DNA from: Pseudomonas tensinigenes | GTDB taxonomy: Bacteria; Pseudomonadota; Gammaproteobacteria; Pseudomonadales; Pseudomonadaceae | Direction of reading: 5' to 3' | DNA length: 64,000 nucleotides | NCBI RefSeq assembly: GCF_014268445.2 | Contig: NZ_CP077089.1 | Span: 424,501 to 488,500 of the forward strand | In this document: piece after piece, positions 36,394-55,043 of the stretch | Layout of the letters: every line of letters begins with the position of its first letter | Position numbering within the stretch: position 1 is the stretch's first letter | Notes under the pieces: model-generated | Told to the model about the DNA's origin: nothing | Database searches by the model: none | Seen by the model: the letters and a program-made list of their open reading frames with translations, nothing else | Program-made: the position numbers and the translations under genes

Positions 36394-38830
<2,437 letters not shown>

Positions 38831-38834
<4 letters not shown>

Positions 38835-40429
38835 GCGTGTCTCCAGCGGGTCGCGCGAATTTCCAGGCGTTGGCCAATGAGGTTGAGCAGGGCGCCGGTG
38901 AGACCGACGAAAAGCATGCCGGCCATGATCAGATCCATGCGCAACAACTGTTGTGCGCCGATCATCTGGCTGCCGATGCCGCCATTGGACGGCATGAAAT
39001 ATTCCGCACCGATGGTGCCGAGCCAGGCGTAGATCAGGCTCAGTCTGAGGCCTGCGAAAATCCCCGGCGCGGCGCCCGGCAATACCAATCGGCGCAGACG
39101 TTGGCCAAGGCTCAGGCGCAACACTTGTGCGGCTTCATTGAGTTGTGGCGAGAGGTTGGCGACGCTGCGTTGCGTGGCGATAAACAGCGGAAAGAATGCA
39201 GCAAGGGCGACGAACACCCACTTGGCCAGTTCGCCGAGACCGAACCAGGCAGTGAGCAGCGGCACCCAGGCGAAAATTGCAATTTGGCGGATAGCCGCGA
39301 GGGTCGGACCGAGCAGGCGTTCGCTGGTGCGGGACAGCCCGAGCAACAGGCCGAGGGCGAAACCGAGTCCGCCGCCCAACAGCAAACCGCCGAGGGTGCG
39401 ACCGAGGCTGAGCGCCATGCCGCTGATCAACGTGCCATCAAGCAGACCGTCCCATGCCGTGTTCAAAACGGCCAGCGGGCTGACCAGAATGTTGGCATCG
39501 ACCCACTGCAGTTCGTTCGCCAGTTGCCATAACGCCAGGAAGCCCAGCGGCAGCAGCCACGGCTGCAGACGTTGCCAGCCTGCATAACGCGGGCCGCGGC
39601 GAATTTCAGCAGTGGCCGGGTGCGGCCAGTGCACCAGTTTCTTGTCCAGCAGGCCGATACCGCGATCCATCGCCACACCGATCAAACCGATCACCACGAT
39701 GCAGACGAACACGATGTCGAGCATGAACAACTGCCGCGCCCAGACCATCAGGTAACCGATGCCTTCGCTGGAGGCCAGCAGCTCGACTGCCAGCAATGAG
39801 GTCCACCCTGCGGCCAGTGCCAGACGCACGCCAGCCATGAACGCGGGGAGGGCGGCGGGCAACACCAGGCGACGGATCAGCAGGGGTGGCGGCAAACGTA
39901 AAACAGCGGCGGCTTCGCGCAGTTTTGGTTGTGCATCTCTCACGCCGACCAGTGTGTGCAAGGTCACCGGCACCACGATCGCTTTGATCAGCACCACCAG
40001 TTTCAGCACCTCGCCGATGCCGAAAAACACCATGAACAGTGGAATCCACGCCAGCGTCGGCACCTGCGACAGACCGGCGAAGGTCGGGAAGACCAAACGC
40101 TCCAGACGGCGACTGAAACCCAGTGCTGCACCGAGCACCGCTCCCGCTGTAATCCCCGCGAGCAAGCCCCAGAACAAGCGTTGCAGGCTGATCCACAGGT
40201 GGCTCCACAACTCGCCTTGCGCCAGCTCGACGGCGCTGTTCCACACCAATGAGGGCGCGGGCAAGATCTGTTCGCTCATCCACTCATTACGCGCGGCCAG
40301 CCACCACAGCGCGAACAGGCTGAGCGGCAGGAGCCATGGCAACAGGCGTTGGTTCAGGCTTGGCCAGATGCGGCGGCTTTTCAGCGGCGGCGCGGGAAGT
40401 GGGAGACTGAGCAAGGATTGGCGGGCCAT
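38831..40429 (-). CDS. atsB: AtsB, double-length sulfate-ester ABC permease
   Basis: A 532-residue permease that is roughly twice the usual length: two tandem binding-protein-dependent permease domains (about residues 30-270 and 285-530), each with its own EAA-type loop (REAAAVLRLPPPLLIRRLVLPAALP and NEAAQVLRLSLGQRLRRLVLPGAAP). A single polypeptide thus replaces the usual homodimer, as described for AtsB of Pseudomonas. It works with AtsC and the divergently encoded AtsR. Upstream lies a 395-bp region shared with atsR. Confidence 0.93.
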
Positions 40430-40824: not shown

Positions 40825-41838
40825 ATGAACCTTCCCTTTAAACGCGTTTTCAGCCTGTTTGCCGTGCCTGCTCTGGCGGGCCTGCTGGCGTTCACCGCGC
40901 ATGCCGACGAACTCAAGGAAATCAGAATCGCCGTGCCCGACCTGAGCGCCGGAACCCAGCACAGCGGCGGCGGTGTGGTGGATGTGCTGCGCGATCAGCA
41001 GATTTTTGAAAAAGCTTTCGCCGATCAGGGCATCAAGATTCAGTGGAGTTTCTTCAAAGGTGCCGGGCCGGTGATCAACGAGGCATTTGCCAACGGTCAG
41101 GTTGATCTGGCGTATCTGGGCGATCTGGCGGCGATCATCGGCAAGTCCAATGGCCTGGATACGCGTTTGCTCAGCGCCAGTGCGCGTGGGGTAAAACAGT
41201 ATTTGGGCGTGGTACCGGGCTCCGGAATCAAGACTCTGCAGGACCTGAAAGGTAAACGCGTGGCGATCTTCCGCGGCACAGCAACCCAGTTGTCGTTTGA
41301 CGCGGCGCTGGCCAGTCAGGGCTTGAGCGAGAAGGATCTGAAAGTCATCAATCTGGATTTCAACGCAGCGGTCGCAGCGCTGGCGGCGAAGCAGATCGAT
41401 GCGTCATGGGGCAGCTCCGGGTTGACCGCATTGCAGGCCAAAGGTCTGGCCGAGCTACCGCTCAATACCAAGGATCTCGGCGGCGCGGGTAGTGTGCAGT
41501 CGGTGCTGGTCGGCACCGGCAAGTTTGTCGATGCGCATCCGGAGGCGGTGGCGAAATTGCTCAAGGCGCAACAGCAGGCGGTTGAGTGGCTGACCGAGGA
41601 CAGCAACAAGGCGGCTTACGTGCAACTGGTCTCGGGTTTGGCCAGTTATCCACCGGTGATCCTGACCCAGGATCTGCAGGATCAGAAATTGAGCGAAGTG
41701 TTCCCGTCGACACTGGATCCGGTGTTCCTCGGCAGCTTGCAGGACAAGGTGGATCTGGCGGCGCAGCAGAAGCTGATTCGCAAGCCGTTCAAGGTCAACG
41801 ATTGGGTGGCGCCTGAGTTGGCGGCGGCCAAACTCTGA
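40825..41838 (+). CDS. atsR: AtsR, periplasmic sulfate-ester/sulfonate-binding protein
   Basis: A 337-residue solute-binding protein with a signal peptide (to about residue 27, AHADE) and the aliphatic sulfonate/nitrate-binding (SsuA-like) fold: IAVPDLSAGTQHSGGG, FEKAFADQGIKIQWSFFKGAGPVINEAFANGQVDLAYLGDLAAIIGKS and LKGKRVAIFRGTATQLSFDAALASQG. It is the binding component for AtsBC and delivers sulfate esters. AAGGAG lies 9 bases upstream of the ATG. Here it is divergent from atsBCA rather than the first gene of one operon. Confidence 0.92.
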   Translation: MNLPFKRVFSLFAVPALAGLLAFTAHADELKEIRIAVPDLSAGTQHSGGGVVDVLRDQQIFEKAFADQGIKIQWSFFKGAGPVINEAFANGQVDLAYLGDLAAIIGKSNGLDTRLLSASARGVKQYLGVVPGSGIKTLQDLKGKRVAIFRGTATQLSFDAALASQGLSEKDLKVINLDFNAAVAALAAKQIDASWGSSGLTALQAKGLAELPLNTKDLGGAGSVQSVLVGTGKFVDAHPEAVAKLLKAQQQAVEWLTEDSNKAAYVQLVSGLASYPPVILTQDLQDQKLSEVFPSTLDPVFLGSLQDKVDLAAQQKLIRKPFKVNDWVAPELAAAKL

Positions 41839-41960: not shown

Positions 41961-42881
41961 CTAAACAGCAACGCTGATCTCCTGCCGGTCCACCGCCACC
42001 AACGTCTCGATCAGCGCCCGCGCCGCCGGCGACAGGCGAAACCCGGTGCGACTGACGATCCCGCAGCGCGCATTCATGCTCTCCAGGTTCTGCGGCAGAT
42101 TGCGCCAGTGCAGCAACACCAGCGAACCCTTGGCAATGTCCTCGACAAACGCCTCTTCCGTGCCCACGCCAATTGCATTCGATTGCAGCACCACTTTGAC
42201 CAGCGCCGGAAAATGCTCGGTCTCGATGGTCGGGGAAAAATCGATGCGCCCACTGAGGTTCGCCAGCAATTTGCGAATCCCCGGCGGGATCAGCGTCGTC
42301 GCCAACGGGTAGTCGAACATGTCGTTGGTCGACAGGCTTTCCTTGGCCAGCAACGGATGCCCCGGCCGGCAGAAAAACACCCCGCGCTTGGGCGTCAGCG
42401 CCTGCGTCTGGAAGTTCGGATCCGACTCGAAATGACGGATGTCGGCGATGAAGAATTCGATCTCTTCACGGCTCAGCGCGCGGCTGAGTTTTTCCCAGTT
42501 ATCCACCTGAAAACAGGTGCGCACTTTCGGGTGCTCGTTGATGAATTGCGCCACCGCATCCGGCACCAGTTTCACCGCTGGCGCCGGGCCGCAACCGAAG
42601 TGCACCTCGCCGGCGTCGAGCTTGGTCATCTGCGTCACTTCAGCACTGAGCAGCGCCGCGCCTTGCACCAGGCTCAAGGCGTGTTGCAGCACCACCTGAC
42701 CCTCGGGCGTGGGGCGCAGGTCCTTGTTGCCGCGATCTACCAGCACGCAGCCGAACTCCTGCTCCAGCCCTTGAATACTGCGGCTGAACGCCGGTTGAGT
42801 GATGCCCATCGCATCCGCCGCGCGGACAAAACTGCGGTGTTCGTTGAGGGCGATGAAGTAGCGCAACTGGCGAAGATCCAT
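41961..42881 (-). CDS. LysR-type regulator divergent from atsK (SftR-like candidate)
   Basis: A 306-residue LysR regulator: N-terminal winged helix (DLRQLRYFIALNEHRSFVRAADAMGITQPAFSRSIQGLEQEFG) and an effector-binding domain. I chose the second ATG (MDLRQLRYF) because GGAA lies 8 bases before it and LysR proteins begin this way; the ATG five codons upstream touches an AGG. It is divergent from atsK with 181 bp between starts. In P. putida S-313 a LysR-type regulator, SftR, controls sulfate-ester genes; position suggests an equivalent, but the name is not proved. Confidence 0.9.
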   Translation of the reverse strand: MDLRQLRYFIALNEHRSFVRAADAMGITQPAFSRSIQGLEQEFGCVLVDRGNKDLRPTPEGQVVLQHALSLVQGAALLSAEVTQMTKLDAGEVHFGCGPAPAVKLVPDAVAQFINEHPKVRTCFQVDNWEKLSRALSREEIEFFIADIRHFESDPNFQTQALTPKRGVFFCRPGHPLLAKESLSTNDMFDYPLATTLIPPGIRKLLANLSGRIDFSPTIETEHFPALVKVVLQSNAIGVGTEEAFVEDIAKGSLVLLHWRNLPQNLESMNARCGIVSRTGFRLSPAARALIETLVAVDRQEISVAV

Positions 42882-42948
42882 ATGCTTTTCCGGCATCCTA
42901 AAAATAGCTCGAAGGCATTTGCGACGAGGGTTGCTAGAGGTTTTAAAT

Positions 42949-42963
42949 GCAAGCTCTTATTCC
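42949..42963 (+). promoter_or_regulatory. Shared element GCAAGCTCTTATTCC upstream of atsK
   Basis: GCAAGCTCTTATTCC lies about 100 bp before the atsK start. GCAATCTCTTAT, matching 11 of the first 12 bases, lies about 92 bp before the TonB-receptor start, and CTTATTCC recurs at 54390 and 59134. It is a candidate sulfur-starvation promoter or regulator site. Confidence 0.5.
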
Positions 42964-42981
42964 GTCAACGAAGCATGTGAA

Positions 42982-43011
42982 TATCTATTAGATGTAAATG
43001 GAATATAGATA
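42982..43011. promoter_or_regulatory. Inverted repeat TATCTAT-N16-ATAGATA upstream of atsK
   Basis: Perfect 7-bp arms (42982-42988 and 43005-43011) separated by 16 bp, 52 bp before the atsK ATG and in the promoter shared with the divergent LysR gene. It has the dyad character of LysR-type binding sites (T-N11-A is not exact), or could be fortuitous in this AT-rich stretch. Confidence 0.4.
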
Positions 43012-43062
43012 GAGCGTTGTTTCGCTGCCGTCCAACCGTAAGCAGTCGATGAGGGTCTACCC

Positions 43063-43971
43063 ATGAGCAATGCCGCACTCGCAGTAAAACCCGCTGTCCA
43101 CGCGCTGGAGATTCATCCGGTCGCCGGTCGTATCGGCGCCGAGATCCGTGGCGTGCATTTGTCCGGTGAGCTGGACGCCGCCACCGTCGAAGCTATCCAG
43201 CAGGCGCTGGTTCAGTACAAAGTCGTGTTCTTCCGTGAGCAGACCCAGCTTGATGATCAGCGTCAGGAAGCCTTCGCCCATCTGCTCGGCGAGCCAGTGG
43301 CGCACCCGACCGTCCCGTCCCGTGAGGGCACCCGTTATCTGCTGGAACTGGACGGCGCTGAAGGCCAGCGTGCCAACTCCTGGCACACCGACGTGACCTT
43401 CGTCGACGCCTACCCGAAAGCCTCGATCCTGCGCTCGGTGGTGGCCCCGGCCTTCGGCGGCGACACCCTGTGGGCGAACACCGCGACGGCGTACAACGGC
43501 TTGCCAGCCGAGCTGCGTGAGCTGGCCGACAAACTGGTCGCCGTGCACAGCAACGAATACGACTATGCCAGCGCCAAGCCGGACGTCTCGGCGGAGAAGC
43601 TTGAGCGCTATCGCAAGGTCTTCACCTCTACCGTTTACGAGACTGAGCACCCGGTGGTCCGCGTGCATCCGATCAGTGGCGAAAAGAGCTTGCTGCTGGG
43701 GCATTTCGTCAAACGTATCAAGGGTTATTCGCAGGCGGATTCGGCGCATCTGTTCGGGCTGTTGCAGAGCCATGTGATCCGCCAGGAAAACACCGTGCGC
43801 TGGCGCTGGAAGACGGGTGATGTGGCGATCTGGGATAACCGTTCGACGCAGCACTATGCGATTGATGATTACGGCACTCAGGATCGGGTGGTGCGTCGGG
43901 TGACGCTCAAGGGGGAAGTGCCGGTGGGCGCGAATGGGCAGCGTAGTCAGACCATCAAAGGTCGTGACTGA
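43063..43971 (+). CDS. atsK: AtsK, 2-oxoglutarate-dependent alkylsulfatase
   Basis: A 302-residue Fe(II)/2-oxoglutarate dioxygenase of the TauD/AtsK family. The metal triad is H108-x-D110 (in SWHTDVTF) and H264 (in STQHYAIDD); Arg275 and Arg279 (DRVVRRV) are placed as the cosubstrate-binding arginines of P. putida AtsK, and the overall sequence reads nearly collinearly with that enzyme as I remember it. It oxidatively cleaves alkyl sulfate esters (e.g. 2-ethylhexyl sulfate) to aldehyde and sulfate. It is monocistronic, divergent from a LysR gene. GAGGG lies 7 bases before the start. Confidence 0.95.
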   Translation: MSNAALAVKPAVHALEIHPVAGRIGAEIRGVHLSGELDAATVEAIQQALVQYKVVFFREQTQLDDQRQEAFAHLLGEPVAHPTVPSREGTRYLLELDGAEGQRANSWHTDVTFVDAYPKASILRSVVAPAFGGDTLWANTATAYNGLPAELRELADKLVAVHSNEYDYASAKPDVSAEKLERYRKVFTSTVYETEHPVVRVHPISGEKSLLLGHFVKRIKGYSQADSAHLFGLLQSHVIRQENTVRWRWKTGDVAIWDNRSTQHYAIDDYGTQDRVVRRVTLKGEVPVGANGQRSQTIKGRD

Positions 43972-44169: not shown

Positions 44170-45786
44170 CTACCAAACACCAATCTGAACAACCTTCTCG
44201 GTCTCCGGCTCACCGTAGCGAAACCGCTGCCCGCGCAAATCTATCTCCCGATGACTGATCGTGGTGCGCCGCTTCAACCCGCGCACCCACTCAAACAAAT
44301 ACGCCGCATGTTCCTCGCGCACCGCCGCGAATTCCGGGTCATCGCCCAAGTCGCGCAACTCCTGCGGGTCATTCAACAGGTCAAACAACTGCGGTCGGAA
44401 ACCGTCGTACGCCAGGTATTTCCAGCGCTCGCTACGCACCATGGTCATGCGGCAACGGTCGATCGGCTGGCCCAAACGCTCACGCGCCGGCGCCTGGAAG
44501 GCGTAGTCGTATTCACTGATTGCATAGCGGCGCCAGTCCGGATGTTCACCGTGCAGAAGCGGGATCAACGAACGCCCTTCAAGCCGATGCTCCGCCCCCG
44601 GCAATCCCAATGCCTGAAGAAACGTCGGCAACGCATCGATGGTTTCCGCCAGTCGATCATCCACCGTTCCGCGCGTGACATCCGCCGCCGCCCGAGGGTC
44701 GCGCACGATCAACGGCACGCCCACCGCCTGCTCCAGCAAAAATTCCTTCTCGCCCAGCCAGTGATCACCGAGAAAGTCGCCGTGATCGCTGGTAAACACG
44801 ATCAGCGTGTCATCCCAGCGTCCGTTGCTTTGCAGAAAATCGAACAGCCGTCCGAGTTGATCATCCACTTGCTTGATCAGGCCCATGTACGTAGGGATTA
44901 CAGTCAATCGTACTGAATCGCGGGAAAAGTTGAGGCTTTCCTCATGCTGGCGAAAAGCAGTGTATACGGGGTGTTTGCTGGCTTCGGAGGGCGTCGCCCG
45001 GACCGCTTCGAGAATCGATTTCGTACTGTACAAGGCGTGGTACGGAGCTGGTACGATGTAGGGCCAGTGCGGTTTGATATAGGAAAGGTGTAAACACCAC
45101 GATTTCTCGCCTTGCTCGGTGATGAAGTCGATGGCTCGATTTGTAGTGTAGACAGTCTCTGAGTGTTGCTCGGGAATTCGTGCTGGCAAATTCGCATGAC
45201 GCATTTTCCAGCCGCTGAGGATTTCGCCGTTTTCGCCTTCGGCGGCATTGACCCAGTCGTGCCAGGGGTTTTTGCCGTCGAAGCCGTGTTCACGCAGGTA
45301 ATGGGTGTAGGGCGCGGATTCGCGTTTGTCGTCGAACAGCGGGTCGTCGGGGTAGATGCCGTCGTGGCGCATGTAGGGTTCGAAACCGACTTCGTTGAGG
45401 ATTTCGGCCTGTTCGCTCTCGGGGTTGATCGCCAGACGCTGCAAGGCATCGACATTCGCCGTGGCGTGGGTCTTGCCTACCAGCGCGGTACGAATGCCGT
45501 GCGGGCGCAGGTAATCGCCAATCGTCAGTTCTTCCAGCGGCAGCGGCACGGCGTTCCACGCCACTTGATGGCTGCTGACATAACGTCCGGTGTAGGCCGA
45601 CATCCGCGATGGGCCGCAGATCGTGCCTTGGGTGTAGGCGCGGCTGAAACGAACGCCGGCAGCGGCGAGGCGATCGATATTTGGTGTGTGCAGATGCGGA
45701 TGGCCGTAGCAGGACAGGTAATCGCGGCGCAGTTGATCGCACATGATGTACAGCACGTTGCGCACGGGGTTTGGCGGGGTGGGCAT
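44170..45786 (-). CDS. Type-I sulfatase / phosphonate monoester hydrolase-like protein
   Basis: A 538-residue alkaline-phosphatase-superfamily hydrolase. DQLRRD near the N-terminus supplies metal-binding Asp residues; Cys57 in GTICGPSRMSAYTGR is the formylglycine site (CxPxR), and FTSDHGDFLGDHWLGEKEF gives further ligands. By length and Cys57 position it resembles phosphonate monoester hydrolases/choline-sulfatase-type enzymes more than AtsA. Substrate unknown; location in the ats cluster argues for a sulfate ester. No signal peptide. GTG 45795 is an alternative start; I preferred ATG 45786. Codons between about 44880 and 45210 are A/T-richer than the rest, suggesting a mosaic segment. Confidence 0.9.
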   Translation of the reverse strand: MPTPPNPVRNVLYIMCDQLRRDYLSCYGHPHLHTPNIDRLAAAGVRFSRAYTQGTICGPSRMSAYTGRYVSSHQVAWNAVPLPLEELTIGDYLRPHGIRTALVGKTHATANVDALQRLAINPESEQAEILNEVGFEPYMRHDGIYPDDPLFDDKRESAPYTHYLREHGFDGKNPWHDWVNAAEGENGEILSGWKMRHANLPARIPEQHSETVYTTNRAIDFITEQGEKSWCLHLSYIKPHWPYIVPAPYHALYSTKSILEAVRATPSEASKHPVYTAFRQHEESLNFSRDSVRLTVIPTYMGLIKQVDDQLGRLFDFLQSNGRWDDTLIVFTSDHGDFLGDHWLGEKEFLLEQAVGVPLIVRDPRAAADVTRGTVDDRLAETIDALPTFLQALGLPGAEHRLEGRSLIPLLHGEHPDWRRYAISEYDYAFQAPARERLGQPIDRCRMTMVRSERWKYLAYDGFRPQLFDLLNDPQELRDLGDDPEFAAVREEHAAYLFEWVRGLKRRTTISHREIDLRGQRFRYGEPETEKVVQIGVW

Positions 45787-45902
45787 GGGGTTCACCGGTC
45801 AATGGGACAGGCGAGGGTTTTCGCTTTCGGTGGGGGTTTTCGGCAAGTGCATTTGGGGAATGGGTTTTATGCAGGAAATGCATCGTTGCCTGTGCTGGCC
45901 TC

Positions 45903-46001: not shown

Positions 46002-46946
46002 TCAGACAGCAAAATTCTCCAGTGAACAGACTTCCTCATCCACCGCATCAATCGCCTTGATCTGCTCAATCATCGCCTCGGCCAACGGCGACAACCGATA
46101 CCCCGCCCGGCTGACAATCCCATAGCGGGTGTACAGCTCCTCAAGATCATCGGCCAACCCTTCAATGCGCAAACACACCAGCTCACCCTTGGCTTGATGC
46201 AGCGCATCGGAATACGCCCCGACAATTCCGATCGCATCCGAACGCAGCACCACGCTGAGCAGGCTCGAGCTGTTTTCACACTCCACATTGGGTGTGAAAT
46301 CCGGCCGCCCACTGAGGTCGACTATGACTTTGCGCAGGTTCGGCGGACGAATACTTACCGCCAAGGGATAGCTCATCAATTGCTCGGCGGTGACCCGCTC
46401 AAACCCGGCCAAAGGGTGGCCGGCACGGCAACAGAAATGCCATTTACGCGGCCGCAACCGGTGGGTCTGGTAATCCGGATCCGCCTCGAAGTGCCGAGTG
46501 TCCGCGACGAAAAATTCAAACTCTTCGCTGAGTAACCGCTTGCTCAGACTCTGCCAGTCATCGACCTGAAACTGCACCCGCGCTTTCGGATAGCGGCCGA
46601 TGAAGCTGCCAATCGCCCGAGGGATCAAACCCGCCGCCGGCGCCGGCCCACAACCGAAGCGTAATTCCCCCGCTTCCAGCCCATTGAACTGGCTGATCTC
46701 GTTGGCCATCTGCTGCGCGCCACTGACCAGTCGCCGTGCGTGCTCCAGCAGCACCTGGCCCTGTTTGGTCGGCGGTAATTCCTTGCGCCCGCGATCAACC
46801 AACTGACAGCCGACGCTGTGCTCCAGCGCCTGAATGCTGCGGCTGAACGCCGACTGCGACAGGTTCACCGCCTGCGCGCCGGCGACGAAGCTGCGTTGTT
46901 CAGCCAAGGCGATGAAGTGACGAAGTTGGCGCAAGTCGATATGCAT
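46002..46946 (-). CDS. LysR-type regulator divergent from the TonB-dependent receptor
   Basis: A 314-residue LysR regulator beginning MHIDLRQLRHFIALAEQRSFVAGAQAVNLSQSAFSRSIQALE (winged helix), with an effector domain whose layout (FGCGPAPAAGLIPRAIGSF, VADTRHFEADPDYQTH, RAGHPLAGF) closely parallels that of the LysR protein at 41961-42881 (FGCGPAPAVKLVPDAVAQF, IADIRHFESDPNFQTQ, RPGHPLLAK). The two are therefore paralogues likely sensing related ligands. It is divergent from the receptor gene (165 bp between starts), which it probably regulates. Confidence 0.93.
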   Translation of the reverse strand: MHIDLRQLRHFIALAEQRSFVAGAQAVNLSQSAFSRSIQALEHSVGCQLVDRGRKELPPTKQGQVLLEHARRLVSGAQQMANEISQFNGLEAGELRFGCGPAPAAGLIPRAIGSFIGRYPKARVQFQVDDWQSLSKRLLSEEFEFFVADTRHFEADPDYQTHRLRPRKWHFCCRAGHPLAGFERVTAEQLMSYPLAVSIRPPNLRKVIVDLSGRPDFTPNVECENSSSLLSVVLRSDAIGIVGAYSDALHQAKGELVCLRIEGLADDLEELYTRYGIVSRAGYRLSPLAEAMIEQIKAIDAVDEEVCSLENFAV

Positions 46947-46971
46947 TTTTCACATAAAAAATATCCGGGAA

Positions 46972-46988
46972 ATGCATTGGATATGCAT
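46972..46988. promoter_or_regulatory. Direct ATGCAT repeats in the LysR/TonB-receptor promoter
   Basis: ATGCAT at 46972-46977 and again at 46983-46988, 11 bp apart (one helical turn), with a third copy at the LysR start (46942-46947). ATGCAT is self-complementary, so the pair forms a dyad typical of an autoregulatory LysR site. Unproven. Confidence 0.4.
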
Positions 46989-47008
46989 TACGTCGACTCC
47001 TTATAAAG

Positions 47009-47020
47009 GCAATCTCTTAT
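47009..47020 (+). promoter_or_regulatory. Shared element GCAATCTCTTAT upstream of the TonB receptor
   Basis: It differs at one base from GCAAGCTCTTAT upstream of atsK and lies at a similar distance (about 92 bp) from the receptor start; see 42949-42963. Confidence 0.5.
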
Positions 47021-47111
47021 GCAGTAAATATTTGTAAAACCATAAATAAATAACTTAAAAGAATATGCAGCGCTGATGATGTCTGTGTGTTTTTTGACCA
47101 GGAGCCGCGTC

Positions 47112-49472
47112 ATGAGTCCGTTGAACCTTGCGTCACCCTTAACGCCACGACGGCTCAAACGCCTGCCTCTGGCCCTGTTGCTGGCAGGGAGCGCGAGCTG
47201 GACTCACGGTTACGCCGCCGAAGCAGAAACCCCGGCGCCAGTGCCGGCTGGCAAGCCTGCCGCCAACAGTTCACAACTGGAAACCGTGACCGTCACCACC
47301 CGCCGCCGCGAGGAAAGTTCGCAGGACGTACCGACGCCCATGAGCGTGGTCAGCGGGCAGAATCTGGAGACGCAGCGGGTCTACCGGATTCAGGATTTGC
47401 AACAACTGGTGCCCAGCGTCAACGTCGCCTACATGCACGCACGCCAGTCCAGCGTGTCGATCCGGGGCTTGGGTAATAACCCTGCAAGTGATGGACTGGA
47501 AGGCAGCGTCGGCCTGTACATCGACAACGTCTATCTGGGCCGCCCGGGGATGGCGGTGTTTGACTTGATGGACATCGAACAGCTTGAAGTCTTGCGGGGG
47601 CCGCAGGGCACGCTGTTCGGCAAAAACACCACCGCCGGGGTGATCAACATCAGCACCCGCGCGCCAACCTTCACGCCTGAGCGCAGCATCGAAACCTCGG
47701 TCGGCGAGGACGGGTATTTCCAGACCAAGGGCACGATTTCCGGCCCGCTCAACGATCAACTGGCCGGGCGTTTTTCGGCCTATCGCACCCGTAGCGACGG
47801 CGACATCAAAAACGAATACGACGGCCATGATCTCAACGGTGGCTCGCGCGAGGGCTTCCGCGCGCAAATGCTGTTCAAGCCCAACGAAGATTTCAACCTG
47901 CGCTGGATCGGTGACTACAACGAAGAGGATTCCAGCGCCGGCACCCGCGTGCTCTACAACACCGGGCCGACCATCAACGGCGTCAACCTGTACCAATCGC
48001 GCGCCAACGCGGCCGGGGCAACATTGGTCAACGGTTCGCACCGCAAGGTCAATCTGGACAACGACCAGCATGTCACCGTGCATCAGGGCGGCACGTCGGT
48101 GGAGGCCAACTGGACGCTGCCGAGCGACTTCACACTGACCTCGATCAGCTCCTATCGCTTCTGGAATTTCACCCCGCGCAACGACGACGGCCTCAACGTA
48201 CCGGCGAGTTACAACGCCGGGGTGTCGGTGGAAGACAAACAGTATTCGCAGGAATTTCGCTTGGCCTCGCCCAAGGGTGAGTTCTTCGATTACGTCGTCG
48301 GCGCCTATTACTTCGGTTCGGACCTGGACAACAAATCCTTCGCCTATTACGGCCCGCAAGCCGATATCTGGAATGGCACGCCGGCCGGTGCGCTGGCCAA
48401 CGTCACCAGTGTTGGCAACGGCCATATCAAGACCGACAGCTTTGCGCTGTTCGCCCAAGGCACATGGCACCTCACCGAGCGGCTGGATTTCACCGCCGGG
48501 GTGCGTGGCACCTATGAAGAAAAAAACGCCTGGGTCACGCGCAATGCGCCGGTCGGCGGCGCGTCAGTCACGGGCGCTGCGGCCACGGCGCGACGCGGTC
48601 GTGCCGGCGCTTACGATTCCGGCGACTTGAATCAGTACAGCTCCAGTCCTTCCGGGTTGCTCAACCTCAGCTATCGCATCACCGATGATGTGCTCGGTTA
48701 CGCCACGCTGTCCCACGGCGAGAAATCCGGCGGGGTCAACCTCGCCGTCGGTTCCGCTCCGGTGGCCGGCGCCGACTCGCTGCTGATCGGCACCGAACGT
48801 GCGAACAACGCCGAACTCGGCTTCAAGAGCACGCTGTGGGACCACCGTCTGCAGCTCAACGCCAACGTCTTCTGGACCCAGGTCAACGCTTACCAGACCA
48901 ATGCCTACGACGCAGAAAATCGCGTGCAGTACCTGACCAACGCCGGTTCCGTGCGTTCGCGCGGCGTCGAGTTCGAAAGCACGGTGATCCCGCTGCGCGG
49001 CCTGACCCTGAACATCAACGGCTCCTACAACGACGTCAGCTACCTCTCGTACAAAGATGCCCCGTGCCCGCCGGAAGTCAGCCAGGCGCCGGGCGCTCCA
49101 GCGTCTTGCGATCTCAGCGGCCATCAAGTGGTCGGCGCTTCGAAGTGGATCGGTAACGCCAACGGCGAATACAAATGGAATCTGGATAACGGCTTCGAAC
49201 CTTACGTCACCGCGAGCTATGCATTCCGTTCGAAAGCCGTCGGCACGGTCGAGGATTCCGACTACGGCCAGATCCCGAGTTACGCCGTGGTCAACTTCTC
49301 CACCGGCCTGCGCGGCGACTTCAACCAAGGTCAGTGGGACGTGTCGCTGTGGCTGAAAAACGCCTTCGACAAAACCTACTACACAACCCTGTGGACGGGC
49401 GGCAACGGCGGCTATGAAGGCCTGCTCGGCACACCGCGCACGCTAGGCGTCACCGGTCGCTACGACTTCTGA
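47112..49472 (+). CDS. TonB-dependent outer-membrane receptor (probable sulfate-ester uptake)
   Basis: A 786-residue receptor: signal peptide (to about residue 36), TonB box-like LETVTVTTRRREE (near residues 55-67), plug domain (QDVPTPMSVVSGQNLE, RGLGNNPASDG, LRGPQGTLFGKNTTAGVINI) and a 22-stranded barrel ending in Phe (VTGRYDF). It imports a substrate too large or scarce for porins, using proton-motive force via TonB. ATG 47112 follows CAGGAG; an ATG 12 codons upstream lacks a good site. Its divergent LysR gene, the arylsulfotransferase 23 bp downstream and the ats neighbourhood point to a sulfated compound; the substrate is inferred. Confidence 0.92.
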   Translation: MSPLNLASPLTPRRLKRLPLALLLAGSASWTHGYAAEAETPAPVPAGKPAANSSQLETVTVTTRRREESSQDVPTPMSVVSGQNLETQRVYRIQDLQQLVPSVNVAYMHARQSSVSIRGLGNNPASDGLEGSVGLYIDNVYLGRPGMAVFDLMDIEQLEVLRGPQGTLFGKNTTAGVINISTRAPTFTPERSIETSVGEDGYFQTKGTISGPLNDQLAGRFSAYRTRSDGDIKNEYDGHDLNGGSREGFRAQMLFKPNEDFNLRWIGDYNEEDSSAGTRVLYNTGPTINGVNLYQSRANAAGATLVNGSHRKVNLDNDQHVTVHQGGTSVEANWTLPSDFTLTSISSYRFWNFTPRNDDGLNVPASYNAGVSVEDKQYSQEFRLASPKGEFFDYVVGAYYFGSDLDNKSFAYYGPQADIWNGTPAGALANVTSVGNGHIKTDSFALFAQGTWHLTERLDFTAGVRGTYEEKNAWVTRNAPVGGASVTGAAATARRGRAGAYDSGDLNQYSSSPSGLLNLSYRITDDVLGYATLSHGEKSGGVNLAVGSAPVAGADSLLIGTERANNAELGFKSTLWDHRLQLNANVFWTQVNAYQTNAYDAENRVQYLTNAGSVRSRGVEFESTVIPLRGLTLNINGSYNDVSYLSYKDAPCPPEVSQAPGAPASCDLSGHQVVGASKWIGNANGEYKWNLDNGFEPYVTASYAFRSKAVGTVEDSDYGQIPSYAVVNFSTGLRGDFNQGQWDVSLWLKNAFDKTYYTTLWTGGNGGYEGLLGTPRTLGVTGRYDF

Positions 49473-49495
49473 TTCGTCACTCAAGGAGCTGCATC

Positions 49496-50839
49496 ATGTT
49501 GCGTATCAAAACCGCTTTGCCGGTGTTGCTGTCCGGCGCAGTGCTCAGTGCCGGCGCCTTCGCCGCACCGAGTGTTTACCCGACGGGTGTTACTCGTTAC
49601 GACCCGACCAAGGCGTTCAACCAGTACGTGATTTTCAGCGGTGCGGACAAACAGACGCACCTGATCGACATGAACGGCAACGAGGTGAAAACCTGGCCAC
49701 AGGCAGGTTTCCCGTCGGCGATCATCGATCCAAAACTGGTCGGCGGCGAGCGCGGGCATGTGTTGCTGCAACTGAGTGAAAAGGATCCCGGCAAACTCGG
49801 TTCGGCCGGCAATGGTCTGGGCAATCAGAGCATCGGTGAGCTGGACTGGAACGGTAAAGTTGTCTGGCAGTGGGGCGACAAGGCCCCCGGTGGCGCGGCG
49901 CAACAGCACCATGATCAGCGCCGGCTGAGCAACGGCAACACCGTGGTGCTGGCGAACAAGGTGCACAAGGTCAAAGGCTTCAAAGTGCCCGAGGTGATCG
50001 ACGATGCGATCTATGAAGTCAGCCCCGACGGCGCGGTGAAATGGCAGTGGCTGGCCTCGGAGCATCTCAATGAATTCGGTTTCACCGCCGAGCAATTGAA
50101 ACTGGTGCGCGCCAGTGAAAATCCGGATTACCTGCACATCAACAACCTCAGCCTGGTGGGGCCGAACAAGTGGTTTGATGCCGGTGACAAGCGCTTCAAT
50201 CCGGACAACCTGTTGATCGATTCACGCAACGCCAACTTCATCGCGATCATCGATAAAAACAGCGGCAAAGTGGTCTGGCGCCTCGGGCCGAATTTGCCGC
50301 TGAGCAACCCGAAAACCGCGCAGAAATTGCCGCGTCCGGTGGATCAGTTTGTCGGTCAGCATGATGCCCACATCATTCCGGCAGGATTGCCTGGAGCCGG
50401 TAACGTGCTGGTGTTCGATAACCAGGGATCGGCGGGTTATCCGAACGTCACCCTCGGGCTGATTTCCGGTTCGCGGGTATTGGAAATCGACCCGGTGAAA
50501 AACGAAATCGTCTGGCAGTACAGCGCGGTGAATTCGAAGCAGCCGGGGTGGGCGTTCTACAGCTCGTTTATCAGCAGCGCGCGACGCTTGCCCAACGGCA
50601 ACACGCTGATCGACGAAGGCATGAACGGACGGTTTTTCCAAGTGACAGCCAGCGGTGAAAACGTCTGGGAATACGTCAGTCCCTATCTCGGCAAGGCGCC
50701 GGGCAGCGACGCGATCAGCAACTGGGTGTATCGGGCGCTGCCTGTGAGTTATGACTGGGTGCCAACGGGTACGCCACGCTCCGAGACAGCGGTTAATGCC
50801 CCGGTTGTCAGTGTGCAGCAAACCAATGCCAGTCGTTAG
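49496..50839 (+). CDS. Periplasmic arylsulfotransferase-like protein (ASST family)
   Basis: A 447-residue protein with a signal peptide (AGAFA, cleavage near residue 23) and the beta-propeller ASST (Arylsulfotran) fold: blade repeats of the type GNEVKTWPQAGFPSA, ELDWNGKVVWQWGDKAPGG, HHDQRRLSNGNTVVLAN and QHDAHIIPAGLPGAGNVLVFDNQG, NGNTLIDEGMNGRFF. ASST enzymes move a sulfuryl group between phenols through a histidine, without PAPS. It starts 23 bp after the TonB-receptor stop, so receptor and enzyme are co-transcribed; the AAGGAG site is just before the ATG. No dsbL/dsbI partner gene is present. Confidence 0.88.
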   Translation: MLRIKTALPVLLSGAVLSAGAFAAPSVYPTGVTRYDPTKAFNQYVIFSGADKQTHLIDMNGNEVKTWPQAGFPSAIIDPKLVGGERGHVLLQLSEKDPGKLGSAGNGLGNQSIGELDWNGKVVWQWGDKAPGGAAQQHHDQRRLSNGNTVVLANKVHKVKGFKVPEVIDDAIYEVSPDGAVKWQWLASEHLNEFGFTAEQLKLVRASENPDYLHINNLSLVGPNKWFDAGDKRFNPDNLLIDSRNANFIAIIDKNSGKVVWRLGPNLPLSNPKTAQKLPRPVDQFVGQHDAHIIPAGLPGAGNVLVFDNQGSAGYPNVTLGLISGSRVLEIDPVKNEIVWQYSAVNSKQPGWAFYSSFISSARRLPNGNTLIDEGMNGRFFQVTASGENVWEYVSPYLGKAPGSDAISNWVYRALPVSYDWVPTGTPRSETAVNAPVVSVQQTNASR

Positions 50840-51028
50840 TTGAAATGGAATTAGTGCTCGAACGAACGGCGATAAGTTATGACCGAGTTGAACAGTGCAT
50901 ATTGCAATTTCGTTAGTAACTCGCGTGGACAATAGTTGAATGTCCAACCATCCTGACTGTCGTGAGTTTCCAGGAGGAAACTTGCTCTCATCGGAAGACA
51001 CTTATCCAACGATAAAGGAAATCTCGTT

Positions 51029-51355
51029 ATGTCGAGCATTAATGGCAATTATGTAAACGCTAACGCTGGCGCCAAACTGACGATTACCGATGGCAACGAT
51101 TCCAACGGCACCTTCAGCGGTAAATTCAGTCAGAACGGCGTGAATTACGACATTGCTTACGGGCACTACCATTTCCAGAATAGCACTGGGCAGCCTACGA
51201 TCATCACGTTCACGGCTCTGAATGACGGCACTGGTTATCAGTCCTGGACATTGTTCTCGCCGGATCACAATTATTCAAAAGTTCGTGCGGTTGGTTCGCG
51301 CACAAACTTTGATGGTGATGTTGTTGGCGTGGCAGGGGAATTCGTCAAACAGTAA
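51029..51355 (+). CDS. Small beta-rich protein, faintly avidin-like
   Basis: A 108-residue protein with no signal peptide, low GC for this genome, and AAGGAA upstream of the ATG. It reads as about eight short beta strands: NGNYVNANAGAKLTITDG, NGTFSGKFSQNG, YDIAYGHYHF, TIITFTALND, YQSWTLFS, KVRAVGSRTNF. Strand order, the opening G-x-Y-x-N and the T-x-F/S-W-T pattern recall avidin/streptavidin, but most biotin-contacting Trp residues are missing and the match is by eye only. Function unknown. Followed by a strong terminator; it forms its own unit between the arylsulfotransferase and a second small gene. Confidence 0.75.
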   Translation: MSSINGNYVNANAGAKLTITDGNDSNGTFSGKFSQNGVNYDIAYGHYHFQNSTGQPTIITFTALNDGTGYQSWTLFSPDHNYSKVRAVGSRTNFDGDVVGVAGEFVKQ

Positions 51356-51367
51356 CGGTGGCTAAAG

Positions 51368-51405
51368 AAGCCGCCACGCCTTTTTCGGGCGTGGCGGCTT
51401 TTTTA
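51368..51405 (+). terminator. Terminator of the small avidin-like gene
   Basis: An AAGCCGCCACGCC / GGCGTGGCGGCTT stem followed by TTTTTT, 12 bp after the stop. Confidence 0.92.
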
Positions 51406-51446
51406 TACCCCTCGAGAAAATCGCGGCTACGATCAACGGCGATTAA

Positions 51447-51761
51447 TTAATTGCCTGTAATTAACACACAGGTTTGCGCTTTGCAGCCTTTTGCGTGACT
51501 AAGCGTCACAAATTTGATTGCCGCCTCGGGTGTCGATGTAGCGACTGTCACAGCTGACTCTTTGTAGTCCTTGGTCTGAATACGTTCGCCCGGCAACACA
51601 ACTTTGCGCCACTCGTTTTGAAATACATAAAGGGGGAAGCTGGTTTTGTTGCTGATCTCCAGTTGCGCAGGCAGTGTGATCTTCGTCGCGGCCGAGGCCA
51701 CCGATAAGGGCGCCAGTAACAGCACCATGTAAATCATTGTCCGTTTGGTTAATTGCATCAT
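51447..51761 (-). CDS. Small secreted protein with a Cys pair, unknown
   Basis: A 104-residue protein: signal peptide (MVLLLAPLSVASAA, cleavage near residue 24) and a beta-rich domain (TKITLPAQLEISNKTSFPLYVFQNEWRKVVLPGERIQT) ending in KGCKAQTCVLITGN with two Cys residues five apart, probably a disulfide. The start chosen is ATG 51761, since AGGA lies 6 bases upstream; an earlier in-frame start adds 12 residues. The composition is A/T-richer than flanking genes. I recognise no family. The pilus-chaperone-like opening (leucine-rich, 'isnkTsfpl') is suggestive only. Confidence 0.65.
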   Translation of the reverse strand: MMQLTKRTMIYMVLLLAPLSVASAATKITLPAQLEISNKTSFPLYVFQNEWRKVVLPGERIQTKDYKESAVTVATSTPEAAIKFVTLSHAKGCKAQTCVLITGN

Positions 51762-51797
51762 TACTCTTCCTGAGTCGATTTTAGAATGCGCTGACAT

Positions 51798-52115
51798 CTA
51801 ATGCGCCCACGGCATGTCAATCAACTCGATTGTTGTAAGCAGGAATGTAGTGCTGCCCCATACCTTCAGCGAATACTTTTAATGCTTGAAAAGCATGGCG
51901 TTTTGGACGCTGGGCTGCGGCCCTTGATTGGCGTGGCTTTGCGAGAAGTGATCAGTTTTAATATATCCAAATGATCTATCCATAACTTGAAAGATTACTT
52001 TCGGAGATAAGTCTCAGGCCCAATCATTCACCCATCGATTCGCCGTGGGGGATTCAACAAACGGTCGATCGGCAGTTTTTGTAGAGAACGCAAAAAGACC
52101 GCAGGGAGTGAATCA
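51798..52115. promoter_or_regulatory. Non-coding region upstream of tonB
   Basis: A 318-bp stretch with no gene visible; A/T-rich from about 51950 to 52010. It should contain the promoters of the divergent small gene and the tonB operon. I see no Fur-box-like 19-bp dyad, which fits sulfur rather than iron control, but the absence is by eye. Confidence 0.5.
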
Positions 52116-52925
52116 ATGGGCAATGTCCAGACCGCCGCCAGCGCAGAGGAATTGCTGTGGCGTCAGACGCCGGGTGGCGAGTTGGTCGATCTCGGCCGGC
52201 CGCATCGTGTGCCGCTGGGGCAGTTGCGTTTGCAGCGTGCACCCAAAGGCATTTTGAGCCGACGCGAAACCCTTCTGCTCGGCGTGCTCGCGCTGGTGGT
52301 GCATGGCGCGGTGATCTATTGGATCAGCCAGAAGCCGACGCCGGTGCTGCCGATCGTGCCGCCGGAAATTCCGCCGATGACCATCGAGTTCTCGCGCCCG
52401 GCACCGCCGGCGCCACCGGTTGTCGAGCCGCCGCCACCTGCGCCAGTGGTTGAACCGCCACCGCCGGTGGAAGACGAGCTGGCGGTAAAACCACCGCCGC
52501 CAAAACCCGTTCCGAAACCCAAACCGGTGGTTAAACAGGCACCCAAACCAGCACCGAAAACGGTCGAGCAACCACCGGCGCCGCCACAACCGGCTGCCCC
52601 GGTTGCAGCGCCAGCGCCACCTGCGCCTCCCGCGCCGGCACCGGTAACCCCGGCCTCAGCGAATGCTGCGTACCTGAAAAACCCGGCGCCGGAATACCCG
52701 TCGCTGGCTCAGCGTCGCGGTTGGGAAGGCACGGTGTTGCTGCGCGTGCATGTGTTGGCCAGCGGCAAACCGGGTGAGATCCAGATAGCCAAAAGCAGCG
52801 GCCGGCAACAGCTCGACGACGCGGCGCTGAACGCCGTGAAGCGTTGGAGTTTCGTCCCGGCCAAGCAGGGTGATGTCGCCCAGGACGGCTGGGTCAGCGT
52901 GCCCATCGATTTCAAGATTCATTAA
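52116..52925 (+). CDS. tonB: TonB energy-transducing protein
   Basis: A 269-residue TonB: an unusual 49-residue cytoplasmic N-terminus, a membrane anchor (about 51-70, LLLGVLALVVHGAVIYW), a Pro-rich periplasmic stalk (about 73-185, with PPAPVVEPPPPVEDE and KPVPKPKPVVKQ) and the C-terminal TonB domain (EYPSLAQRRGWEGTVLLRVHV ... ALNAVKRWSFVPA). It transmits proton-motive force from ExbBD to outer-membrane receptors. The start follows AGGGAG. First in a tonB-exbB-exbD operon placed 2.6 kb downstream of a TonB-dependent receptor, implying a dedicated partnership. Confidence 0.94.
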   Translation: MGNVQTAASAEELLWRQTPGGELVDLGRPHRVPLGQLRLQRAPKGILSRRETLLLGVLALVVHGAVIYWISQKPTPVLPIVPPEIPPMTIEFSRPAPPAPPVVEPPPPAPVVEPPPPVEDELAVKPPPPKPVPKPKPVVKQAPKPAPKTVEQPPAPPQPAAPVAAPAPPAPPAPAPVTPASANAAYLKNPAPEYPSLAQRRGWEGTVLLRVHVLASGKPGEIQIAKSSGRQQLDDAALNAVKRWSFVPAKQGDVAQDGWVSVPIDFKIH

Positions 52926-52970
52926 ACCGAAACCAAATTCGCGCAAAACGTTTACACGAGGGAATACATC

Positions 52971-53696
52971 ATGACGTTACTGGCATCTCCACTGGAATCC
53001 ATCGAAAGCGCGGTGATCTGGCTGTTGGTGGTTTTTTCCGTCGCCACTTGGGGCCTGGCATTGCTCAAGGCTGTGCAGTTCGGGCGTCTGAAGGCACAGG
53101 ACCGGCGTTTTCATAAACGCTTCTGGGCGGCGTCGAGTCTCGATTCCGCCGCTGAATTGAGCGAAACCCAACCCGGCGCTGCGGCGCGGGTGGCGCAGGC
53201 CGGTTACGCGGCGATTCAGGTGGGCGAGGCGCCACAGGCCAATGATTTGAGCCAGGCGATCAACCATCAGGATCGACTGGAGCGCGCTTTGCGTCAGCAA
53301 ATTGTCCGCGAACGCCGTTCGCTGGAAACAGGCTTGGCAGTGGTCGCCAGTATTGGCAGTACCTCGCCGTTCATTGGTTTGTTCGGCACGGTGTGGGGAA
53401 TCATGGAAGCGTTGAAAGGCATCAGCGCGGCCGGTTCGGCGAGCCTGGAAACGGTGGCCGGGCCGATCGGTGCGGCACTGGTCGCCACGGGTGTGGGGAT
53501 CGCCGTCGCGGTGCCGGCGGTGCTGGTTTACAACTATTTTTTGCGTCGGTTGAAACTGACGGCGGCGGATCTCGATGACTTCGCCCACGACTTCTACAGC
53601 CTGGCGCAGAAGAGTGCGTTCCGCGTGTTGATCCATCCCACCGCGCACAAGGTCGCTGCGCCGGGCAACGCAGCAAAAGTGAAGGAGGCGTCCTGA
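52971..53696 (+). CDS. exbB: ExbB, TonB-complex proton channel subunit
   Basis: A 241-residue MotA/TolQ/ExbB-family protein with three membrane helices: one at residues 10-30, then a long cytoplasmic loop, then TSPFIGLFGTVWGIMEAL and ETVAGPIGAALVATGVGIAVAVPAVLVYNYF, the conserved channel motifs. It forms the pentameric channel that powers TonB. The ATG lies 45 bp after tonB, with GAGGGAA upstream; exbD begins 1 bp after its stop. Confidence 0.95.
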   Translation: MTLLASPLESIESAVIWLLVVFSVATWGLALLKAVQFGRLKAQDRRFHKRFWAASSLDSAAELSETQPGAAARVAQAGYAAIQVGEAPQANDLSQAINHQDRLERALRQQIVRERRSLETGLAVVASIGSTSPFIGLFGTVWGIMEALKGISAAGSASLETVAGPIGAALVATGVGIAVAVPAVLVYNYFLRRLKLTAADLDDFAHDFYSLAQKSAFRVLIHPTAHKVAAPGNAAKVKEAS

Positions 53697-53697
53697 T

Positions 53698-54099
53698 ATG
53701 GCCTTCTCCACGCAAGACAGTGATGAGGTACTCAGCGAGATCAACGTGACGCCGCTGGTGGATGTGATGCTGGTGCTGCTGGTGGTGTTTATCGTCACCG
53801 CGCCGCTGCTGACCAACGCGATCCCGATCAACCTGCCGAAGACTGAGGCGGTGGCGCCGGTCGAGCAGAAGGATCCGCTGGTGGTGAGCATCGACGGCGC
53901 GGGCAAACTGTTTATCAACAAGGATGAGATTCAGCCGGACTTGCTGGAATTCAACCTCAAGTCGGCCAAGGCCAAGGACCCGGAAGTGCGCGTGCAGTTG
54001 CAGGCCGATGACGGGGTGAACTACGGCGAAGTGGCGCGGGCGATGGCTTCGATTGAACGGGCGGGGATTACCAAGTTGTCGGTGATTACTGCGCGGTGA
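53698..54099 (+). CDS. exbD: ExbD, TonB-complex subunit
   Basis: A 133-residue protein with one N-terminal membrane helix that includes the proton-path Asp in INVTPLVDVMLVLLVVFIV, and a periplasmic domain. It completes the ExbBD motor. Starts 1 bp after exbB and is followed by a terminator. Confidence 0.95.
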   Translation: MAFSTQDSDEVLSEINVTPLVDVMLVLLVVFIVTAPLLTNAIPINLPKTEAVAPVEQKDPLVVSIDGAGKLFINKDEIQPDLLEFNLKSAKAKDPEVRVQLQADDGVNYGEVARAMASIERAGITKLSVITAR

Positions 54100-54118
54100 C
54101 AGATTCAACGTTTTTCCG

Positions 54119-54155
54119 GGGCCGTCTCCTTGGCAGGGTGCGGCCCTTTTTTTAT
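54119..54155 (+). terminator. Terminator of tonB-exbB-exbD
   Basis: A GGGCCG / CGGCCC stem with a 16-base loop, followed by TTTTTTTT, 19 bp after the exbD stop. Confidence 0.85.
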
Positions 54156-54173
54156 TTTTGGCAGGGAGAAAAG

Positions 54174-54330
54174 CCCCTCACCCTAGCCCTCTCCCGGAGG
54201 GAGAGGGGACTGACCGCGTTGTTTGGCCGCTATACGCCGACCTGAAATACCCAGTCGAACTCCGGATTTGAAAGGCCAGGTGATCGGCTCCCTTCCCCCT
54301 CGCCCCCTTGGGGGAGAGGGCAGTGAGGGG
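54174..54330. repeat. Large inverted repeat element (one, shorter unit)
   Basis: Begins CCCCTCACCCTAGCCCTCTC and ends GGGGGAGAGGGCAGTGAGGGG, with GGGGACTGACCGCG and TACGCCGACCTGAAATACCC inside. A divergent copy of the family at 36201-36379. Confidence 0.8.
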
Positions 54331-54381
54331 GAAAAGATTTCAAGCCATGCACACGTCTCATATTCAATTCAGGTCTTAATA

Positions 54382-54399
54382 AATAGCTTCTTATTCCTT
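54382..54399 (+). promoter_or_regulatory. Shared element AATAGC-TTCTTATTCCTT upstream of the hydrolase/AAA+ operon
   Basis: Identical to the 12-mer TTCTTATTCCTT, also preceded by AATAGC (one base different in spacing), at 59125-59143. It lies about 62 bp before the RBBP9-like hydrolase start. Candidate common control of the two operons. Confidence 0.55.
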
Positions 54400-54461
54400 A
54401 ACGAATATAAATCCCCTCCCTATACTCGTTCAGGAACAGACACGACGCAGGAGAGCTCCCC

Positions 54462-55043
54462 ATGCGCAACGAATCAATCCGCTACCTGATTGTGCCGGGC
54501 TGGCAAGGATCGCCAGATGATCATTGGCAAAGCCACTGGCAGAACAGCCTGCCAAACAGTGCGCGGGTCGAGCAGGCCGATTGGCTGACGCCGCGTCGTG
54601 AAGACTGGGTCGCGGCACTGGCCGAGGCGATTGCTGCCGACAGCACGCCGGTCATCCTTATCGCCCACAGCCTCGGCTGCATCACCGTTGCCCACTGGGC
54701 GGCCACGGCGCCGTTGCAATACCTGCGTCAGGTCCGCGGCGCCTTGCTGGTTGCGCCGGCCGATGTCGAGCGCCCGGCCTGCGCGCCGGCGCTGCGTAAC
54801 TTCGCACCGATTCCGACTGATCTGCTGCCGTTCCCAAGCCAGGTGGTCAGCTCCGACAACGACGCCGCCGTCAGCGCACCGCGCGCTCTGGAACTGGCGC
54901 GCAACTGGGGTGCCGAGGCGGGGATTCTCGCCGGTGCCGGACACATCAACGTCAAGTCCGGGCATCAGCGTTGGGAGCAGGGTTTTGCTTATCTATATCG
55001 CTTGCAAAACCGTATGGAACACCACGCTCGCCGCCGCGCCTGA
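54462..55043 (+). CDS. RBBP9/YdeN-family alpha/beta hydrolase
   Basis: A 193-residue serine hydrolase: YLIVPGWQGSPDDHWQSHWQ is the family's opening, the nucleophile Ser sits in LIAHSLGCITVAHW (AHSLG form of GxSxG), the catalytic Asp is in SQVVSSDNDAAVS, and the His in GAGHINVKSG. Substrates of bacterial RBBP9-like proteins are mostly unknown; members adjacent to sulfur-starvation genes occur in Pseudomonas. It leads a two-gene unit with the AAA+ regulator 54 bp downstream. The promoter region carries TTCTTATTCCTT. Confidence 0.9.
   Translation: MRNESIRYLIVPGWQGSPDDHWQSHWQNSLPNSARVEQADWLTPRREDWVAALAEAIAADSTPVILIAHSLGCITVAHWAATAPLQYLRQVRGALLVAPADVERPACAPALRNFAPIPTDLLPFPSQVVSSDNDAAVSAPRALELARNWGAEAGILAGAGHINVKSGHQRWEQGFAYLYRLQNRMEHHARRRA

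Follow-up and report, generated by a model that had tools for sequence, protein, structure and literature searches.

We investigated a gene pair in the genome of Pseudomonas tensinigenes in which a TonB-dependent receptor gene is followed on the same strand, 23 bp after its stop codon, by a gene for an arylsulfotransferase (ASST). The stretch of DNA analysed (hereafter the window) is 64,000 nucleotides long and spans positions 424501-488500 of the genome, a single contig of 6.62 Mb. The pair lies among genes for the use of sulfate esters and upstream of a tonB-exbB-exbD set (Table 1). An earlier note on this DNA had proposed that receptor, ASST, two small genes and tonB-exbB-exbD form one dedicated system of import and desulfurisation within an ats/sulfatase region; the genes, motifs and spacing that it named, the 23 bp gap included, were all located, as were the ats and sulfatase surroundings. 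Parts were identified from sequence, from Pfam and NCBIfam profile models and from synteny, with the Pfam scan at the locus covering ten proteins (46002-56030). Most model scores in the ats region lie below their cut-offs, and the ats names used here are assigned by synteny. Signal peptides were judged by eye throughout.

Table 1. Genes and promoter regions of the locus, in window coordinates
Feature	Position	Strand	Basis
atsA-like type I sulfatase	36394..38004	-	motif CSPTR; kept in relatives
atsC-like ATP-binding cassette (ABC) ATPase	38019..38834	-	sequence, position, conservation
atsB-like ABC permease	38831..40429	-	sequence; kept in relatives
atsR-like periplasmic binding protein	40825..41838	+	SsuA family, 157.8 bits (cut-off 163.5)
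lysR1, SftR-type regulator by position	41961..42896	-	order atsCBR-lysR1-atsK as in UW4 (PMC3596284)
Divergent lysR1/atsK promoter	42897..43062		shared element TTTTAAATGCAAGCTCTTATTC
atsK-like Fe(II)/2-oxoglutarate dioxygenase	43063..43971	+	taurine dioxygenase model, 251.9 bits (cut-off 313)
Second type I sulfatase / PehA-like hydrolase (sulfatase 2)	44170..45795	-	motif CGPSR; PehA 338.7 bits (cut-off 900)
lysR2, related to lysR1	46002..46946	-	divergent from receptor; adjoins receptor in relatives
Divergent lysR2/receptor promoter (129 bp)	46947..47075		AATGCATTGGATATGCATT (46971-46989) and CTTATAAAGGCAATCTCTTAT (47000-47020)
SftP-type TonB-dependent receptor	47076..49472	+	Pfam Plug and barrel; synteny with UW4 sftP; alternative start at in-frame ATG, 47112
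ASST type A, 447 amino acids	49496..50839	+	Pfam Arylsulfotrans, 91.8 bits (cut-off 24.2)
smallA open reading frame	51029..51355	+	0 Pfam families
smallB open reading frame	51447..51797	-	0 Pfam families
tonB, tonB2 type by synteny	52116..52925	+	Pfam TonB_C
exbB	52971..53696	+	Pfam MotA_ExbB
exbD	53698..54099	+	Pfam ExbD

The corresponding locus of UW4 is described as atsACBR-sftR-atsK-sftP, with sftP encoding a TonB-dependent receptor (PMC3596284). The window has the same genes in the same order, with a TonB receptor past atsK. It differs in two places: sulfatase 2 and lysR2 are inserted in the atsK-receptor interval, and the receptor is followed by the ASST. The UW4 text makes no use of the word 'sulfotransferase' (PMC3596284). 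Two loci without sulfatase 2 and lysR2 (L072 and L075) follow the UW4 order from atsC on and carry receptors 89-90% identical to that of the window, so the receptor of the window is SftP-type. Synteny of the atsRBC transporter, LysR gene, atsK and TonB receptor supports the proposed membership of a sulfate-ester (ats/sft) locus. LysR-type control of sulfate-ester metabolism, as suggested here, is reportedly also found in P. putida S-313, with SftR as the regulator (Kahnert et al. 2002).

The receptor and the ASST recur as a pair

To follow the pair across genomes, we surveyed 199 Pseudomonas genomes for the receptor, accepting matches with E up to 1e-150 (80 genomes qualify), and the same genomes for ASSTs with the Pfam Arylsulfotrans model. 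An ASST was present in 42 of the 80 receptor genomes and in 0 of the 119 receptor-less ones (Fisher p 4e-21, uncorrected for relatedness). Adjacency was tabulated for 50 ASST genes, with split pieces merged by hand, together with receptor rows from the ASST genomes. These 50 genes fall into three branches, which we call types A, B and C, and 46 of them touch an SftP-family receptor. Type A, to which the window ASST belongs, has the receptor directly upstream in all 22 genomes that carry it, the window's own included. Type B is confined to the 18 genomes whose receptors show 71-75% identity, is present in all of them and lies directly after the receptor in every one; its proteins score about 409-424 bits against Pfam Arylsulfotrans, and in the five loci that were read the first possible start codon lies ~20 bp past the aligned receptor end. 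Type C shares 29-30% identity with type A; for 6 of its 10 genes the next gene downstream encodes an SftP-like receptor. The receptor-ASST pair is conserved and recurrent, and the adjacency on which the earlier proposal was built holds across these genomes.

We also examined relatives in named genomes, taking the best 80 of 252. The pair is kept in 74 of these 80, with the receptor upstream in 52 (median gap 27 bp) and downstream in 22 (median ~354 bp). All 22 receptor-downstream loci, from Duganella, Massilia, Pseudoduganella, Rugamonas and a Burkholderiaceae metagenome-assembled genome (MAG), have a sulfatase gene directly after the receptor. Four sulfatases of this family were inspected, two from receptor loci (L135, L150) and two from loci without a detected receptor (L148, L165), and each shows CSATR together with an N-terminal arginine run and lysine, typical of twin-arginine translocation (Tat) signals. 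Acinetobacter, Azotobacter and a Rhodocyclaceae MAG have the receptor and then the ASST, with ats-like genes near. When nine genomes were searched with the window receptor, its best match was the neighbour of the ASST in all six genomes that contain the pair (places matched by hand).

Pairing of this kind could also arise if the ASST were a passenger, held beside the receptor by inheritance of an old insertion and without a functional tie to it. Pseudomonas type A does have a single insertion site, and related genomes are not independent of each other. A passenger would not be expected, however, in three ASST branches, in both gene orders and in Gamma- as well as Betaproteobacteria, nor does it fit the lack of any ASST in receptor-less Pseudomonas genomes or the finding that the neighbouring receptor is the genome's closest in six of six cases. 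We regard this explanation as highly improbable.

Several loci show further arrangements. In Azotobacter vinelandii (L130) a single cluster holds two SftP-like receptors, one beside lysR1/atsK and the other followed by two tandem ASST genes. In L175-L179 an ASST resembling the Escherichia coli enzyme directly follows the receptor, with no visible signal peptide and no linked tonB. The receptor of G034 is in two pieces, that of G128 has an internal stop, and so has the ASST of G073.

A promoter element is shared with atsK

The lysR2-receptor promoter is largely conserved in an alignment of 69 sequences from loci whose receptors range in identity down to 70%. Its core is also present between lysR1 and atsK, where 22 of 28 bases are identical (local score 32; the best of 200 shuffles scored 29), and 61 of 62 lysR1-atsK regions retain at least 21 of the 28 bases, a level that none of 1240 shuffles reached (at most 20). 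Allowing up to three mismatches, the pattern TTWTAAAKGCAAKCTCTTATKC has two sites genome-wide, the lysR1-atsK and lysR2-receptor promoters, and its reversed control none; because the pattern was built from both sites, these matches arise by construction, and the informative part is that there is no third site. At a constant offset, five type B loci retain 20-21 of the 28 bases; in two receptor-atsK loci the figure is 21. Such values on their own lie at the edge of chance. The shared element suggests that the receptor-ASST operon and atsK, an alkylsulfatase gene by synteny, are under one kind of control.

The informative element of the receptor promoter is CTTATAAAGGCAATCTCTTAT. The perfect palindrome AATGCAT-N5-ATGCATT of the same promoter was rejected as a mark of a regulon: the window holds no other close copy of it, with three matches at up to three mismatches and 2.5 expected. 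Bare CTTAT-N11-CTTAT is no more frequent than chance. Comparisons of the receptor promoter with the reverse strands of the atsB-atsR region and of the region upstream of tonB beat 200 shuffles; these alignments are gapped and patchy, and no conclusion was drawn from them. Promoter and terminator scans stayed at chance level. Tallies of lysR1 and lysR2 homologues may include cross-matches between the two.

The tonB-exbB-exbD genes accompany the receptor

We asked how often the receptor has a linked exbB, defined as one on the same strand, downstream and within 15 kb. The linkage table has 81 receptor rows, one for each of the 80 genomes and a second for G013, with further copies dropped; the row of G157 is a receptor other than the one beside its ASST, and an ASST is counted here when it is of type A. 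Where the receptor is at least 77% identical, exbB is linked in 52 of 56 genomes, at 21/22 with a type A ASST versus 31/34 without. Since linkage is alike with and without the ASST, tonB-exbB-exbD is best seen as the partner of the receptor and not of the ASST. Among rows below 70% identity, 3 of 7 have a linked exbB, and among the genomes with 71-75% receptors none of the 18 does, several of these assemblies being in many contigs; these 18 genomes pair the receptor with a different ASST, type B. Of the three-part system proposed earlier, the receptor-ASST pair therefore stands and the TonB set as a partner of the ASST does not. The type A ASST is an accessory between receptor and tonB-exbB-exbD in one lineage. 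In two loci without an ASST (L180, L181), an SftP-like receptor has two atsK-like genes and then tonB-exbB-exbD after it.

A set that corresponds by synteny is known from other pseudomonads. In PAO1, tonB2-exbB-exbD (PA0197-99) is strongly up under sulfate starvation, its Pf-5 counterpart (PFL_0225-27) is down under iron limitation, and by locus number the set lies near ats genes, as the window set does (PMC3377617). PAO1 differs from the window in that PA0193 is tauD3, a dioxygenase; an expected identity of PA0193 as an ASST was not borne out (PMC12274486).

These data bear on whether the receptor might instead serve an iron-siderophore or another catechol, with the sulfur genes as mere neighbours. 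Its best NCBIfam match is indeed a TonB-siderophore receptor model, at 155.9 bits, under the cut-off of 223.5. Position and promoter, however, tie the receptor to the ats genes and atsK, the receptor at this position in UW4 was named SftP (PMC3596284), and the tonB2 set beside ats genes responds to sulfate and iron as described above (PMC3377617). We consider a siderophore receptor the least probable of the alternatives.

Type A keeps the ASST fold and main catalytic residues

A fold search with the window ASST returned the propeller fold of EcAST, the AssT of E. coli (3elq/3ets), and of Cpz4 (9kf4/9kf6). The match covers EcAST residues 117-571 only, which indicates that the N-terminal domain of EcAST is missing from type A. 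By sequence, a search from type A reached Cpz4 and did not reach EcAST; one type B protein matches EcAST directly (462 bits to 3elq). In an alignment of 12 of 81 type A, five type B and two type C sequences, the catalytic His436 of EcAST and its sulfuryl-binding Arg374 and His252 correspond to type A H289, R244 and H139, which are invariant in 81/81. With the fold and main catalytic residues kept, the protein is a predicted sulfuryl transferase.

The window ASST carries a Sec-type signal (MLRIKTALPVLLSGAVLSAGAFA-AP). A signal peptide is visible in none of atsA, whose arylsulfatase-type models all score below cut-off, atsK and sulfatase 2, so the ASST would be the sole exported sulfate-ester enzyme of the locus. 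EcAST is periplasmic and has a Dsb partner (PMC13426309). Unlike EcAST, the window ASST has 0 cysteines and no Dsb protein was found among the ten proteins scanned, which sets it apart from the EcAST-DsbL/DsbI type with its essential disulfide and its dsb genes in the operon.

An exported enzyme could in principle act simply as a sulfatase that uses water for its acceptor, and leave the free sulfate so formed in the periplasm to an sbp-cysTWA-like transporter. A transporter of this sulfate-type ABC family, identified by sequence, is encoded elsewhere in the window (25293-29276). Characterised ASSTs are described as transferases, however (PMC13426309), and we find this explanation improbable.

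A candidate route for sulfate-ester scavenging

Inorganic sulfate is scarce in soil (PMC8079746). We propose, with a probability of about 0.55, that the locus represents a branch of the sulfate-ester scavenging locus of Pseudomonas in which receptor and ASST are combined, with a periplasmic relay. The evidence consists of features read from the DNA itself: gene order, homology, the main catalytic residues, the export signal, the shared promoter element and the recurrent pairing. The sulfur-scavenging role suggested by the earlier note gains from the promoter element shared with atsK, from the sulfate-ester locus and from the retained catalytic residues, and we think it very likely that the receptor-ASST operon is a sulfate-ester scavenging operon. 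We are more hesitant about the exact relay through the ASST to AtsRBC, which has somewhat less than an even chance of being right.

Under sulfate shortage, a LysR-type regulator would switch on the operon of SftP-type receptor and secreted ASST through the promoter element that it has in common with lysR1/atsK. The neighbouring TonB-ExbB-ExbD would power the receptor, which would import a sulfate ester poorly passed by porins, such as a large, scarce or polyphenolic one. In the periplasm, the ASST would take the sulfuryl group onto histidine H289 and pass it to a small phenol; the resulting small aryl sulfate would enter by AtsRBC and be cut in the cytoplasm by AtsA, AtsK or the second sulfatase. 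The shortage, LysR and TonB steps draw on homology, synteny, the promoter and the literature on relatives, and from there on we infer the ligand, the direction of transfer, the acceptor and the hand-over to AtsRBC, as well as the inducing condition in this strain.

A number of observations weigh against this proposal. Of the 80 receptor genomes, 38 have no ASST, 4 of 10 type C genes lack a listed neighbouring receptor, and no receptor was detected in 6 of the best 80 of 252 relatives. Gene tables for the plasmid contexts of more distant ASSTs (6 of 26 records) contain no receptor. A signal peptide is not visible in type B (five loci) or type C (three loci), and both probably work in the cytoplasm. 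A periplasmic step is thus no general rule, and sulfuryl transfer by these two types would follow uptake across the inner membrane. The unguided alignment set H214-x-N216, invariant in type A, off EcAST H356/N358, placed EcAST T501 against type A I359, and left a gap in type C at the His436 column. The window tonB-exbB-exbD, moreover, is a putative counterpart of PA0197-99 by synteny only. Among the plasmid ASSTs, one from Paenibacillus is followed by an ABC transporter.

The ASST could also serve the acceptor: the aryl sulfate brought in would donate the group with which a phenol or other hydroxyl compound is sulfated, for detoxification, masking or storage of sulfuryl groups, while the sulfatases alone supply sulfur. 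That the 38 genomes manage without an ASST would agree with this, as would the description of ASSTs as ping-pong transferases with broad acceptors and unidentified natural substrates (PMC13426309). The promoter element shared with atsK, on the other hand, points to sulfate release, as does the sulfatase gene that comes third in 22 loci among the best 80 of 252, and we judge a role centred on the acceptor unlikely, though less so than the other alternatives.

Beyond the scavenging proposal for this locus, a wider reading is speculative: in these bacteria, ASSTs could handle the sulfur in a modular cassette for uptake across the outer membrane, of which they would form one half. An SftP-like receptor is joined in either order to one of three ASST branches, and a sulfatase or AtsK can be added or take the place of the ASST. 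The sulfuryl group of the imported compound might then be passed to a phenolic carrier, perhaps recycled or secreted, which would be for sulfate what a siderophore is for iron.

The locus is already known, as are its receptor, its regulator and the TonB set. The earlier note was not aware of a description of the pairing as one system; the receptor (SftP), the regulator (SftR) and the ats cluster have been described. The Kahnert et al. 2002 study reportedly involved a P. putida arylsulfotransferase, and the pairing in P. putida may be known from there. Within the literature searched, which did not include Kahnert 2002 and Tralau 2007, no title or abstract describes a receptor-ASST pair. The nearest is a remark on Sutterella, where 1 of 17 asst genes lies near lysR and a TonB gene; in the available text the authors judge the asst genes isolated and not in operons, and claim no pairing with a receptor (PMC10932419). 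Set against that literature, what appears new is that three ASST branches have repeatedly been joined to one receptor family. A 2026 review calls the role of ASSTs in physiology poorly understood (PMC13426309), and the pairing with three branches hints at their natural purpose. It makes that role testable, with the receptor as a handle on the ligand and the shared promoter element as a handle on the condition. TonB uptake is best known for iron, cobalamin and glycans. The pairing suggests that it also serves organic sulfate.

Small genes and the downstream regulator

The two small genes between ASST and tonB, included in the system by the earlier note, were compared between loci with a type A ASST and receptor loci from genomes without an ASST (20 loci and a few more). 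smallA is present in 11/21 loci with the ASST versus 8/20 without, and smallB in 1/21 versus 2/20 (and in 2 of the best 80 of 252 relatives). Both come and go regardless of the ASST, and we place them outside the system. smallB is a small, secreted-looking and rare protein. smallA is a Pseudomonas orphan of 108 amino acids with 16 homologues found, and is predicted to form a streptavidin-like barrel (predicted local distance difference test score 88.2; template modelling score 0.73 by query length, E 1.2e-3, probability 1.00). It often sits between an SftP-type receptor and tonB, in three tandem copies in L104 and L106.

Directly past the locus (55098-56030, + strand) lies a gene for a sigma-54 activator without a receiver domain, which we take to be SfnR-like; 16 of the 21 type A loci have such an activator downstream.

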